Source: an uncultured Bacteroidota bacterium (GTDB lineage: Bacteria > Bacteroidota > Bacteroidia > Chitinophagales > Chitinophagaceae). From it: a stretch of 64,000 nucleotides of DNA. A program made the position numbers and the translations under genes. Under the pieces are notes generated by a model that saw only the letters and a list, made by a program, of their open reading frames with translations, was not told the origin of the DNA and made no database searches. The stretch is taken from the NCBI GenBank assembly GCA_903824725.1, contig CAIJXU010000054.1:1-64000 (forward strand), written 5' to 3'. Shown piece by piece: positions 44,371 through 51,976 of this stretch (position 1 is its first letter; the number at the start of each line of letters is the position of its first letter).

Positions 44371-47217
44371 TTATAAAGTACGCTTTACTTCCTCTTCTTC
44401 AAATGCTTCCACGATATCCCCCACCTTTAAGTCAATAAAGTTTTTAATCGTTAAGCCGCATTCCATATTAGAAACCACTTCCTTGGCGTCGTCTTTGAAT
44501 CGCTTCAAACTTCCCAATTCTGCAGCTTGCCCTTCCCCTTTAGGGTATTCCACAATACCATCACGGATAATACGTATTTTACTATTTCTACTCAATTTAC
44601 CATCCAATACAAAACATCCTGCAACGGTTGCTTTATCAAATTTGTATACTTCTCTTACTTCAACATTTGCAGTAATTTTTTCCTGAATCTTAGGTTCTAA
44701 CATACCTTCCATTGCACTCTTAATTTCATCAATGGCGTTATAGATAATGGAATATAATTTGATTTCCACCCCTTCCGTTTCAGCTAATTTATTTGCTTGC
44801 ATACTAGGTCGAACATTAAATCCAATAATAATGGCATCTGACGCAGCAGATAACAATACATCTGATTCAGAAATTTGACCTACCCCTTTTAATACAACTC
44901 TTACAGCAATTTCTTCGGTAGATAATTTTTGTAATGAGTCACTCAAGGCTTCAACTGATCCATCCACATCCCCTTTGATAATAATATTCAATTCCTTGAA
45001 ATTACCTAAGGCCAAACGACGACCAATTTCATCTAATGTAATATGTTTTCTAGTTCTTAAACCTTGCTCTCTTAATAATTGAGCGCGTTTAGTAGCTAAT
45101 TCTTTTGCTTCGGACTCATCTTCAAATACTTTGAATTTCTCACCCGCTTGTGGTGCTCCATTCAAACCTAATATCACCACTGGTGTAGAAGGAGGTGCTG
45201 AATCAATACGTTGATTACGCTCATTAAACATCGCTTTTACACGTCCATAATATTGTCCAGATAAAATTAAATCACCTTGTCTTAAAGTTCCGTTTTGTAC
45301 TAAAATAGTGGCGACATAACCACGCCCTTTATCTAAAGAGGCTTCAATGATGGTTCCTGTACCTTCTCTGTTTGGGTTGGCTTTTAAATCTAATAAATCA
45401 GATTCTAAAATAACTTTTTCTAATAAGGTATCTACATTCAATCCTTGCTTAGCAGACAACTCTTGGTTTTGGAATTTACCACCCCAAGCTTCTACTAAAA
45501 TATTCATTTGAGAAAGTTGCTCGTATATTTTTTGTGGATTAGCACCGTCCTTATCAATTTTGTTGACAGCAAATATCATGGGAACACTCGCAGCTTGCGC
45601 ATGCGAAATAGCCTCTTTTGTTTGAGGCATTACAGCATCATCCGCTGCTACTACAATGATGGCGATATCGGTTACTTTAGCACCTCTTGCACGCATCGCT
45701 GTAAACGCTTCGTGACCCGGTGTATCTAAGAAAGTAATGGCTTTACCATTTGGTAAGGTTACCTCGTATGCACCAATATGTTGTGTAATACCTCCAGCTT
45801 CACCTGCAACAACATTGGCATTACGTATATAATCCAATAAAGAAGTTTTACCGTGATCTACGTGACCCATAATGGTAACAATAGGAGGACGCTCCACTAA
45901 GTTGGCTAAATCTTCTGCTTCTTCTTCTTCATCCATTTCTTCTACATCTTCTAGTCCAACAAATTCTACTTCAAAAGCAAATTCACTTGCTACTAATTCA
46001 ATGACTTCCGCATCTAATCTTTGGTTAATAGAAACCATGATACCCAAATTCATACACTTGCTAATGATATCAGCAAAACTGACATCCATTAAACTTGACA
46101 ACTCACTTACAGTTACAAATTCAGTTACTTGTAATTTATTATCTCTTACTTCACTTTGTTCATTCTCTGCAGCTTCTTCTCTTTTAGCACGACGATATTT
46201 AGATTTCAAACTTTTACCTCGACCTCCTTGGCCTGATAATTTAGCCTGTGTTTCTTTGATCTTATCTTGAATGGCTTTTTGACCAATTTCTTTTTGTTCG
46301 GGTGTTTGTGGTGCATTGCGATTACCTCCTGGTCTGTTACCACCTGGTCTATTGCCCCCTTGTCCTTGGTATCCACCACCTGGTTTATTACCACCTGGTC
46401 TGTTTCCACCTTGGGCTCCGCCCCCTGGACGATTGCCTCCACCTTGCGCACCGCCTTGTTGTGGAGGACGACCTGTTGGAGTAGGAATGCGTTTACGAAC
46501 TCGCTTTTCCTCCTGACTCATTGGTTTTGGCCTTGTATCGCTATTAACAGGTAAATCAATTTTACCCATCACTTTTGGACCTTCTAATTTGTCAGCCCTA
46601 ATATTTTCAATTTTACCATGCACATTTTCGGGCGCAATAGAATGATCGACTGGAGCTGATTTTTTGGATGCCGATTTAGCAGCTGGTGCTTTTTCGGCTG
46701 GCTTGGCTTCTGGCTCTTTGGGAGCATCTGCTTTTTTGGTTGCTTTTTTAGGTCGAGTAGAGGAATCAATTTGAGATAAATCAATCTTGTTGATGACCTT
46801 TGGTGTTTCTACTTCAGGTACTTTGATATTGGTAGTTACTTGTTCAGCAGGAACTTCTTCAATTGTCTTTTCAGCTTTACTTGCTTTTTTATCGGCAGCT
46901 ACTTTAGTTTCTTTTGCCTTAGGCGCATCCGCTTCTTCAGCTTCAGGTGCTTTTTTGGCAACGGCTTCCTCTGGCTTTTTAGCTTTATCAGTAATTGCAT
47001 TTTTAGGCAATTCAACATGATCTGCTTTATCCCTGGCCACTTTGTCGCCCTGAAATTCAGCTTGTAAAGCGTAATACTGATCCTCCGTTAATTTAGCCGC
47101 TGGCTTAAGGTCATCCTTGGGGAAACCTTTCTTAGCTAGGAACTCAATCAAGGTATCTTGACCGATGTTGAACTCCTTAGCAGCTGCTAACAATCTTGGT
47201 AATTTCAATTCTGACAT
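44371..47217 (-). CDS. infB: translation initiation factor IF-2
   Basis: 948 aa. A long N-terminal region (about 1-340) contains an IF2_N-like helix bundle, an Ala/Lys/Pro-rich linker and a Gly/Arg/Asn-rich tract. The GTPase core follows: G1 [16 protein letters not shown]3 [13 protein letters not shown]4 NKIDKDGA. Domains II, III and the fMet-tRNA-binding C2 domain end the protein. It positions initiator tRNA on the 30S. It is third in the rimP-nusA-infB operon, 68 nt after nusA, an order conserved across bacteria. Confidence 0.97.
46324..46468 (-). repeat. Gly-rich in-frame repeat tract of infB
   Basis: Imperfect repeats of GGTGGTAACAGACCAGG type encode [12 protein letters not shown]. The opposite strand yields spurious Pro/Cys-rich ORFs in the ORF track. 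The tract is coding and likely variable in length. Confidence 0.6.
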
Positions 47218-47285: not shown

Positions 47286-48536
47286 TTATTCACCTTTATC
47301 AAACTCTTCTTGTAAAATTCGACGCACATCCGCGATGGTCTCTTTTTCTAAATCGGTTCTTCTTTCTAGTTCATCGGCACTTAGCTTGATAACGCTGCGA
47401 GCAGTATCACAACCCACACGCTTGAATTCATCAATAATCCAAGTTTCAATTTCATCGCTAAATTCATCTAAATCAATGTCAAATTCATCAACGATTTCCT
47501 CGTCTTCACGATAAACATCTAATTCAAAGCCTGTTAATTCAGCAGCCAATTTAATATTCACCCCACGACGGCCAATGGCTAAAGAAACCTGATCAGCTGG
47601 TAAGTATACTTCGACACGCTTTGTTTCGGTGTCAATATTCATGTAGCTAATTTTGGCAGGTGTTAATGAACGTTGTATTAATAATTGAGTATTAGTTGTA
47701 AAATTAATGACATCAATATTTTCATTTTTTAATTCTCTTACAATACCATGGATACGACTTCCTTTCATTCCCACACAAGCACCTACTGGATCAATACGAT
47801 CGTCAAAAGATTCAACGGCCACTTTAGCACGCTCACCTGGTTCACGCACAATTTTTTTAATGGTAATTAAACCATCAAATATTTCAGGTACTTCAATTTC
47901 TAATAATTTAGCTAAGAATAAAGGACTTGTTCTAGATAAAATAATAACAGGTGAATTATTTTTCATATCCACTCTTGCTACTACTGCACGAATATTTTCC
48001 CCCTTCTTAAAAAAGTCTTGAGGAATTTGTTCTGTTTTTGGAAGAATCAATTCATTTCCTTCTTCATCTAATAACAAAACTTCTTTTTTCCAAACTTGAT
48101 AAATTTCAGCATTAATAATATCGCCAATACGATCAGAATATTTTTTTACTAAAACATTTTTCTTAAGATCATTGATACGAGAAGCCAAAGTTTGTTTAGC
48201 TGCTAATATAGCCCTACGACCAAAGTCTAAAATATCTACCTCTTCATATAAATCCTCACCTATCTCAAAGTCAGGCTCTATCTTGATTGCGTAAGAATAA
48301 GGTACTTCCTCTAAAGGATTGTCAACATCATCATCGGGTCTAATTTGACGACGACGAATTATTTCCAAATCTCCTTTTTCGGCATTCACGATAACATCAA
48401 AGTTTTCGTCACTACCATACTTTTTTCTGATCAAAGTTTTAAAAACATCTTCTACCACTTTCATCATCGTTGGGCGATCAATATTTTCAGCGTCTTTAAA
48501 CTCCTGAAAAGCTTCGATCAAATTTATACTTGCCAT
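47286..48536 (-). CDS. nusA: transcription termination/antitermination factor NusA
   Basis: 416 aa. N-terminal RNAP-binding domain, S1 domain (IGDIINAEIYQVWKKEVLL about 130-200), two KH domains (GACVGMKGSRIHGIVREL; AIGRRGVNIKLAAEL) and a short acidic C-terminus ending in a helix-hairpin-like segment. The ORF track begins at a TTG 18 nt upstream; ATG at 48536 is chosen because MASINLIEAFQEF is the family N-terminus. A 6-bp stem (48551-48567) lies just upstream of the start. It is second in the rimP-nusA-infB operon and may control that operon through the leader terminator. Confidence 0.96.
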   Translation of the reverse strand: MASINLIEAFQEFKDAENIDRPTMMKVVEDVFKTLIRKKYGSDENFDVIVNAEKGDLEIIRRRQIRPDDDVDNPLEEVPYSYAIKIEPDFEIGEDLYEEVDILDFGRRAILAAKQTLASRINDLKKNVLVKKYSDRIGDIINAEIYQVWKKEVLLLDEEGNELILPKTEQIPQDFFKKGENIRAVVARVDMKNNSPVIILSRTSPLFLAKLLEIEVPEIFDGLITIKKIVREPGERAKVAVESFDDRIDPVGACVGMKGSRIHGIVRELKNENIDVINFTTNTQLLIQRSLTPAKISYMNIDTETKRVEVYLPADQVSLAIGRRGVNIKLAAELTGFELDVYREDEEIVDEFDIDLDEFSDEIETWIIDEFKRVGCDTARSVIKLSADELERRTDLEKETIADVRRILQEEFDKGE

Positions 48537-48574: not shown

Positions 48575-49045
48575 TTAAAATTGAACTTGAACTATAGTTG
48601 ATTTAATATTCTCAAATGGGATCAGCAATTGTTGTTGGATTGCTTTTTTTCCTTTTCCGTCGGTCCACTCTAATACAATGTCATTATCCGAAACTGTCAT
48701 CAGTTGACCTATTTTTTCACTTGCATCATTTAAAGTAACCATCACTTTGCGACCTATATTTTTTTGATATTGACGATTCAATATTAAAGGTTCGTCTACA
48801 CCAGGCGATGACACTTCTAATGAAAAATCGCCTTCGGGAAACCAAGCTTCTTCTTCGATGGCTTTGTACAATTTTCGATTAAAAAAAGTACATCGCTCAA
48901 TAGGCAACCCTTTGTCCCCATCTAAAAACACTTTAATGTTATTAGTAGGTTTAATTTTTATCTGAACGCAAAAATAGCTTTGATCCTCTTCTAAAAAAGG
49001 GTCGATGACTGCTTTTACCTTATCTATTAATACACTTGGTTCCAT
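48575..49045 (-). CDS. rimP: ribosome maturation factor RimP
   Basis: 156 aa. N-terminal ferredoxin-like domain (CTFFNRKLYKAIEEEAWFPEGDFSLEVSSPGVDEPL) and C-terminal SH3-like barrel match RimP. It helps 30S assembly. It is first gene of the rimP-nusA-infB operon. The ATG lies only 13 nt after a terminator-like hairpin. Confidence 0.93.
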   Translation of the reverse strand: MEPSVLIDKVKAVIDPFLEEDQSYFCVQIKIKPTNNIKVFLDGDKGLPIERCTFFNRKLYKAIEEEAWFPEGDFSLEVSSPGVDEPLILNRQYQKNIGRKVMVTLNDASEKIGQLMTVSDNDIVLEWTDGKGKKAIQQQLLIPFENIKSTIVQVQF

Positions 49046-49052
49046 ATTTAAA

Positions 49053-49082
49053 AAAGAAGAAGGGAACGATTTCGTTCCCTTC
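49053..49082 (-). terminator. leader terminator (candidate attenuator) of the rimP-nusA-infB operon
   Basis: On the minus strand GAAGGGAACG-AAAT-CGTTCCCTTC is a perfect 10-bp stem followed by TTCTTTTTT and then the rimP ATG. It lies between a good promoter (49102-49134) and the first gene, so it can only act on the operon's own transcript. In E. coli the nusA operon leader is likewise subject to termination. NusA control here is inference. Confidence 0.7.
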
Positions 49083-49101
49083 GATAGCTTTTATACTAGA
49101 C

Positions 49102-49134
49102 CAAAGGTAATAAAAGAGGATGAAATATCCCAAA
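49102..49134 (-). promoter_or_regulatory. promoter of rimP-nusA-infB
   Basis: Minus-strand TTTG (49131-49134), a 21-nt spacer and TACCTTTG (49102-49109) fit the Bacteroidota promoter pattern. The predicted start near 49095 places the terminator hairpin within the leader. Confidence 0.55.
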
Positions 49135-49163
49135 ATTATTGTGAGAGCCCTTATTTTTGCACT

Positions 49164-49412
49164 ATGAGTAAGTTGATATTTTACGGTATAATGGTGTATT
49201 TCCTATACAAATTGATATTTAATGTGGTAGTTCCTGTGAGCAATGGAGTGAATACCATGCGTCAAAATATGGAACAAGCCAAGGCGGCTGAAGCCAACAG
49301 ACAGGCTGCAGCCAATGCGAAGTTTAACCAAAATGCCACCCATACCCAAAAGGCGGATGGACCTCCAGTTGAAGCAGAATACATTGAATTTGAGGAAGTT
49401 AAGAAGAAATAA
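49164..49412 (+). CDS. small DUF4834-type membrane protein
   Basis: 82 residues. One N-terminal transmembrane helix (about 4-24, IFYGIMVYFLYKLIFNVVVP) followed by a Gln/Ala-rich, helical cytoplasmic segment and an acidic end (EYIEFEEVKKK). The pattern matches short Bacteroidota proteins annotated DUF4834; function unknown. The ORF track's 135-aa version runs back through the rimP promoter and is rejected; ATG at 49164 starts the hydrophobic helix. A TATTTTTG box lies at 49152-49159, too close to the ATG to be a sure promoter. It converges on the HAD gene with a 3-bp gap. Confidence 0.72.
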   Translation: MSKLIFYGIMVYFLYKLIFNVVVPVSNGVNTMRQNMEQAKAAEANRQAAANAKFNQNATHTQKADGPPVEAEYIEFEEVKKK

Positions 49413-51939: not shown

Positions 51940-51976
51940 AAAAAAGGCCGACTTCTTTCGAAGCCAGCCTTTTTTT
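51940..51976. terminator. bidirectional terminator between ald and the beta-helix lipoprotein gene
   Basis: AAAAAAGGC (51940-51948) pairs with GCCTTTTTT (51967-51975), with inner CTTC/GAAG pairs and two mismatches. Poly-A and poly-T flanks make it work in either direction. Confidence 0.75.

Follow-up and report, generated by a model that had tools for sequence, protein, structure and literature searches.

A promoter-proximal terminator in the rimP-nusA-infB leader of Bacteroidota as a probable antiterminator-free attenuator

The rimP-nusA-infB operon of an uncultured bacterium of the Chitinophagaceae (Bacteroidota) is preceded by a terminator hairpin and U-tract, placed between a predicted promoter and the rimP start codon. 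This intrinsic terminator lies in the 5′ leader close to the promoter and is probably an attenuator without an antiterminator, where termination stimulated by NusA would limit nusA-infB expression. The element is not a new kind; rather, it is the Bacteroidota version of the known leader terminator of this operon. The original prediction, made from this DNA alone, had proposed a control special to the lineage, a view that we abandon because the same kind of element occurs in nearly the whole phylum and the rimP-leader has been known since 2010 (PMC2965389). The operon is near-universal and its control known but little studied; our analysis widens that control to an entire phylum (the 2010 supplementary lists may already include Bacteroidota), in a very short form that consists of promoter, terminator and gene. 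Owing to the simplicity of the leader, a direct test in vitro would be easy.

Anatomy of the leader

The window, i.e. the whole stretch of 64,000 nt that was analysed, encodes the operon and its leader on the minus strand (Table 1). The start of nusA was taken at the ATG of MASINLIEAF; the list of open reading frames begins this gene at an upstream TTG, 48554.

Table 1. Features of the operon and its predicted leader in the window
Feature	Coordinates	Strand	Basis
rimP, ribosome maturation factor, first operon gene	48575..49045	-	ORF; PF02576 match above cut-off
nusA, transcription factor, likely sensor	47286..48536	-	ORF; PF08529 match
infB, translation initiation factor IF-2	44371..47217	-	ORF; PF11987 match
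-33 element TTTG, predicted promoter	49131..49134	-	sequence; fits Bacteroidetes consensus TTTG / TAnnTTTG (PMC7366714)
-7 element TACCTTTG (TAnnTTTG)	49102..49109	-	sequence; box position common in Bacteroidia leaders
Terminator hairpin GAAGGGAACG-AAAT-CGTTCCCTTC, 10 bp, 4-nt loop	49059..49082	-	sequence, terminator scan, folding, covariation
U-tract TTCTTTTTT, predicted termination zone	49050..49058	-	sequence, terminator scan, conserved T-rich tail

Read on the minus strand, 21 nt separate TTTG from TACCTTTG and a further 19 nt separate TACCTTTG from the stem, in which all ten positions pair (10/10, six of them G-C). Four nucleotides, AAAT, lie between TTCTTTTTT and the rimP ATG at 49045. 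The arrangement TTTG-N21-TACCTTTG, perfect 10-bp stem, 4-nt loop, TTCTTTTTT and rimP had been predicted correctly to the base; the ATG does follow 13 nt on, as was said, if the count begins at the stem, and not if it begins at the T-tract, whose end is 4 nt before the ATG. Both promoter elements are positioned as expected for the primary sigma factor of Bacteroidetes, TTTG near -33 and TAnnTTTG near -7, in agreement with the published consensus (TTTG / TAnnTTTG; PMC7366714).

Judging from the position of the box, transcription would start at ~49098, ~4 nt past TAnnTTTG, and the terminated RNA is predicted to be ~45-50 nt long, with its end ~48 nt from the start. Folding of the predicted 49-nt leader yielded -18.3 kcal/mol (z = -4.9), a value that 0 of 200 shuffles equalled, and the hairpin was also picked up by a terminator scan of the window. 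With up to three mismatches allowed, the hairpin pattern has a single match in the window and none in 100 shuffles, while the exact stem pattern is single-copy in the genome, the next-best copy having two mismatches and lying at another place. In the window, 41 genes are preceded by intergenic sequence, and rimP alone among them shows the succession of TAnnTTTG box and terminator. Elsewhere in the window, at 51940-51975 on the minus strand, a terminator of 16 pairs with TTTTTT, strong and to all appearances bidirectional, occupies an ordinary position between two convergent genes.

The close spacing of promoter and terminator is general. Of 143 Bacteroidia leaders, 140 carry an exact TAnnTTTG no more than 60 nt upstream of the stem; in control windows taken further upstream, the box turned up in 6 of 385. 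Across the full set of leaders that have a box, box and stem are mostly 18-21 nt apart. If transcription starts ~4 nt after the box, ~16 nt would precede the stem, and an upstream ORF therefore has no room. An antiterminator was sought by complementarity between the 17 nt before the stem and either arm; pairing did not rise above that of shuffles, and none was found in the window. As this segment shows no better pairing with either arm than shuffles do, attenuation of the classical type, through competing structures, is unlikely. With no antiterminator possible, the element is a set-point terminator rather than a two-state switch.

Conservation and covariation across Bacteroidota

A terminator-like hairpin, counted as a perfect-stem terminator above threshold, precedes rimP in 193 of 211 Bacteroidota leaders, a sample in which the named and unnamed collections overlap and some genomes stand twice (126 of the Bacteroidia leaders are distinct), compared with 15 of 2110 dinucleotide shuffles (0.7%). 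The remaining 18 of the 211 leaders contain imperfect or bulged hairpins with T-tracts, as judged by folding or by eye, two or three of them less clear. A terminator-like hairpin was also sought upstream of rimP in genus g137 of family f55 (L263 and L272) and none was found, the only clear absence; the element is thus not indispensable. A TATTTTTG promoter-like box is present before rimP in both.

In the genus of the window, hairpin and T-tract precede rimP in all 29 loci with enough upstream sequence (29/29, the window's own counted), and the hairpin is kept even though RimP identity falls to 56%; near relatives with a name are Sediminibacterium along with other Chitinophagaceae. In the remaining families of the order the typical form is GAGGGGAC-loop-GTCCCCTC-TTTTT, as it is in other orders of the class. 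In other classes the stems differ (AGTGGG/CCCACT, TGGGC/GCCCA, CGCCC/GGGCG, TAGCCCG/CGGGCTA), and the terminator is still there. Leaders differ in loop length (3 to 8) and in the distance from stem to ATG (9 to 126 nt), and the T-tract stays adjoining the stem; a T-rich tail directly 3′ of the stem is conserved over the 126 distinct leaders. Near the stem, the U-tract is interrupted in the genus and family of the window (CTTC-TTC-TTTTTT or CTTC-TCC-TTTTTT), where other families have CTC-TTTTT; this interruption may weaken the terminator.

Leaders for covariation analysis were picked by their TAnnTTTG box, and not by a hairpin, in order to avoid circularity. Of 75 sampled leaders 64 were aligned and 11 dropped by hand, namely L097 and L038, where the search had hit a box other than the promoter's, and nine more that were for the most part near-duplicates. 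In the 64-leader alignment 92.3% of cells are paired and all ten stem pairs show changes on both sides (10/10). The covariation score of 0.392 compares with 0.210 +/- 0.012 for shuffled alignments and at most 0.258 for slid controls, and RNAalifold recovers 9 of the 10 stem pairs unaided. A covariance model built from the alignment scores the window site at 47.5 bits and the runner-up in that genome at 30.9 bits; across 40 genomes its best 21 matches are all rimP leaders, many of them in or near the training set. Conservation of hairpin and T-tract in relatives, the check that had been set beforehand, thus holds for every genus-mate examined and for nearly the whole phylum, with compensatory changes. 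Conserved hairpin, T-tract and covariation also support in part the conditional attenuator that was originally proposed, though not as a two-state switch, for which an antiterminator would be required.

Sensed product and alternative readings

In 2010 it was left undecided which of the two products, RimP or NusA, exerts control; a family of another class (f50) bears on this point. PF02576 (RimP) finds no match in any of 11 genomes of this family (7 genera; L231-L234, L239, L241, L244, L249, L258, L261 and L262, i.e. G238 and kin; L235-L238 not included), all of them at least 96% complete, and NusA is present; rimP thus appears to have been lost altogether and nusA kept. Upstream of nusA, a GGGC/GCCC-type terminator occurs in all 11 genomes, nine by automatic scan and two (L232 and L261) by eye. 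Among rimP-bearing sisters of the same order, by contrast, only 1 of 31 has a terminator upstream of nusA, whereas the scan finds one upstream of rimP in 28 of 31 (and inspection by eye in L268 also). The element therefore tracks the head of nusA-infB, not rimP, which disfavours RimP as the sensor. Wherever both genes share one contig, infB lies downstream of nusA, so that breaks in the operon do not separate NusA from IF-2 as sensor, and the sensed product remains NusA, or the linked IF-2. Demand for NusA or for RimP/IF-2 had been put forward as the signal; RimP becomes an unlikely member of that list, as the rimP-less family keeps a terminator before nusA, and the other two stay together.

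In the mechanism that we favour, RNA polymerase would start at the TTTG/TAnnTTTG promoter and make ~16 nt of RNA, followed by the hairpin; a fraction of polymerases would halt in the U-tract ~48 nt from the start, with the rest continuing into the operon. NusA would stimulate termination, such that the operon encoding it would be transcribed less when NusA is abundant and more when it is scarce. Termination in vivo presumably takes place at the predicted terminator, and the proposal that NusA sets its efficiency draws on analogy with other bacteria. A broader version, which we regard as evenly balanced, is that of an ancient NusA meter across Bacteroidota: all it would need is a terminator at a set place just after the promoter, the stem sequence changing from class to class with structure and position preserved, and the element standing ahead of nusA after the loss of rimP, with NusA (or linked IF-2) and not RimP being sensed. 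The transcriptome paper on Bacteroides thetaiotaomicron mentions neither rimP nor nusA.

A real leader terminator could also hold operon transcription at a constant low level, without any regulating factor. Such a reading agrees with the lack of an antiterminator and of a sensor domain, and with the conservation, across classes, of stem and T-tract alone while stem sequences differ (GAGGGGAC, AGTGGG, CGCCC, TGGGC). We nevertheless consider it rather unlikely, as a weaker promoter would be a simpler means to this end, near-universal retention, also before nusA after rimP loss, suggests control, and NusA control is reported in B. subtilis in the account given by PMC12288461.

A role of the 5′ hairpin in mRNA stability or in tuning rimP translation would suit the window, where the stem ends 13 nt before the ATG; yet elsewhere this distance ranges over 9-126 nt, and the T-tract conserved directly after the stem is needed for termination only, making this explanation very improbable. 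Nor can much be said for control of termination by RimP, or by a ribosome-assembly intermediate, bound to the hairpin: rimP is the first gene in the operon, feedback by RimP was raised as a hypothesis in PMC2965389 and Bacteroidia strongly conserve the stem sequence, but a terminator persists before nusA in 11 rimP-less genomes, and we give the idea scant credence. The Bacteroidia stem keeps its sequence, GGGRAC/GTYCCC, and not pairing alone; such conservation exceeds the needs of a plain terminator and counts against NusA-stimulated attenuation, our best explanation.

Just downstream of the promoter, the stem might instead be a palindromic DNA operator for a repressor, being a perfect dyad at ~+16 to +40, with covariation that is compatible with a DNA dyad as well. 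However, the half-sites are spaced 3 to 8 nt apart depending on the leader, the stem sequence differs between classes and the conserved T-tract is asymmetric, which renders an operator highly doubtful. Intrinsic terminators usually lie at gene ends, and the hairpin could accordingly belong to the upstream gene, as its terminator or an insulator outside the operon transcript, a reading that barely merits consideration given that the upstream neighbour (49164-49412) is on the plus strand, divergent from rimP, so that the hairpin is not a neighbouring gene's end, that a promoter box stands upstream of the hairpin in nearly all Bacteroidia leaders (see above), and that the 13 nt between stem and ATG in the window are too short for a promoter.

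The divergent small ORF encodes a hydrophobic N-terminus and has a TATTTTTG box of its own at 49152-49159 on the plus strand, 4 nt before its ATG at 49164. From the position of this box, its mRNA would be nearly leaderless. As the box would serve the divergent gene, the hairpin would fall outside that gene's transcript.

Comparison with known leader terminators

The E. coli metY-nusA-infB leader is longer, with metY and further elements. Repression of that operon by NusA is cited in PMC2965389 and PMC4448216. In S. agalactiae, gbs0413-gbs0418 (rimP-nusA-infB-rbfA) is transcribed from a single start site into a long RNA and a short one, which stops 31 nt downstream, and NusA-linked leader termination was proposed (PMC4448216). 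This leader and that of the window have in common that the intrinsic terminator follows the start site very closely (a predicted start in the window), with termination at 31 nt by RNA-seq in S. agalactiae (PMC4448216) versus ~48 nt predicted from sequence here.

Rfam scanning of the window site returned no credible family, and RF01770 (rimP) had no match there even at E up to 10. In 100 genomes of the order, 0 matches reached the gathering score of 47 bits; there were sub-threshold matches only, none of them at the window site among the matches listed. The Rfam model, of 102 positions, shares operon position and general idea with the Bacteroidota element.

The nusA leader of B. subtilis is reportedly free of antiterminator structures. 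As far as PMC12288461 relates the work of Mondal et al. (2016), nusA is autoregulated there through NusA-stimulated leader termination. Intrinsic termination in the leader would control the nusA operon in both systems, the effect of NusA being experimental in B. subtilis, according to the same account, and proposed by analogy in Bacteroidota; the leaders measure ~180 nt (PMC2965389) and ~50 nt in the window, respectively.

The closest counterpart is the rimP-leader terminator that Naville and Gautheret described in 2010 in Firmicutes, Gammaproteobacteria and others and called the most ubiquitous attenuator of transcription; its terminator stem is conserved, its general form has no antiterminator and NusA was favoured as regulator (PMC2965389). 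The Bacteroidota element likewise stands directly before rimP-nusA-infB, with a T-stretch, and resembles the rimP-leader in part in its arms, which in the latter are G-rich (5′) and C-rich (3′); the window has this hairpin and T-stretch in the 5′ UTR of the operon, again with no visible antiterminator. The rimP-leader, lacking an antiterminator in its general form, lies 4-130 nt from the gene start (PMC2965389), a range that also covers the Bacteroidota element. Its arms read GGGc/gCCC (PMC2965389), whereas those of Bacteroidia read GGGRAC/GTYCCC; a GGG/CCC core is there, followed usually by A or G, not C. The G-first arm is general in Bacteroidia, and CGCCC...GGGCG occurs in some other classes. 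Unlike the rimP-leader of PMC2965389, the Bacteroidota element is very near a Bacteroidetes-type promoter, and the stems of other classes differ, some having the C-rich arm first.
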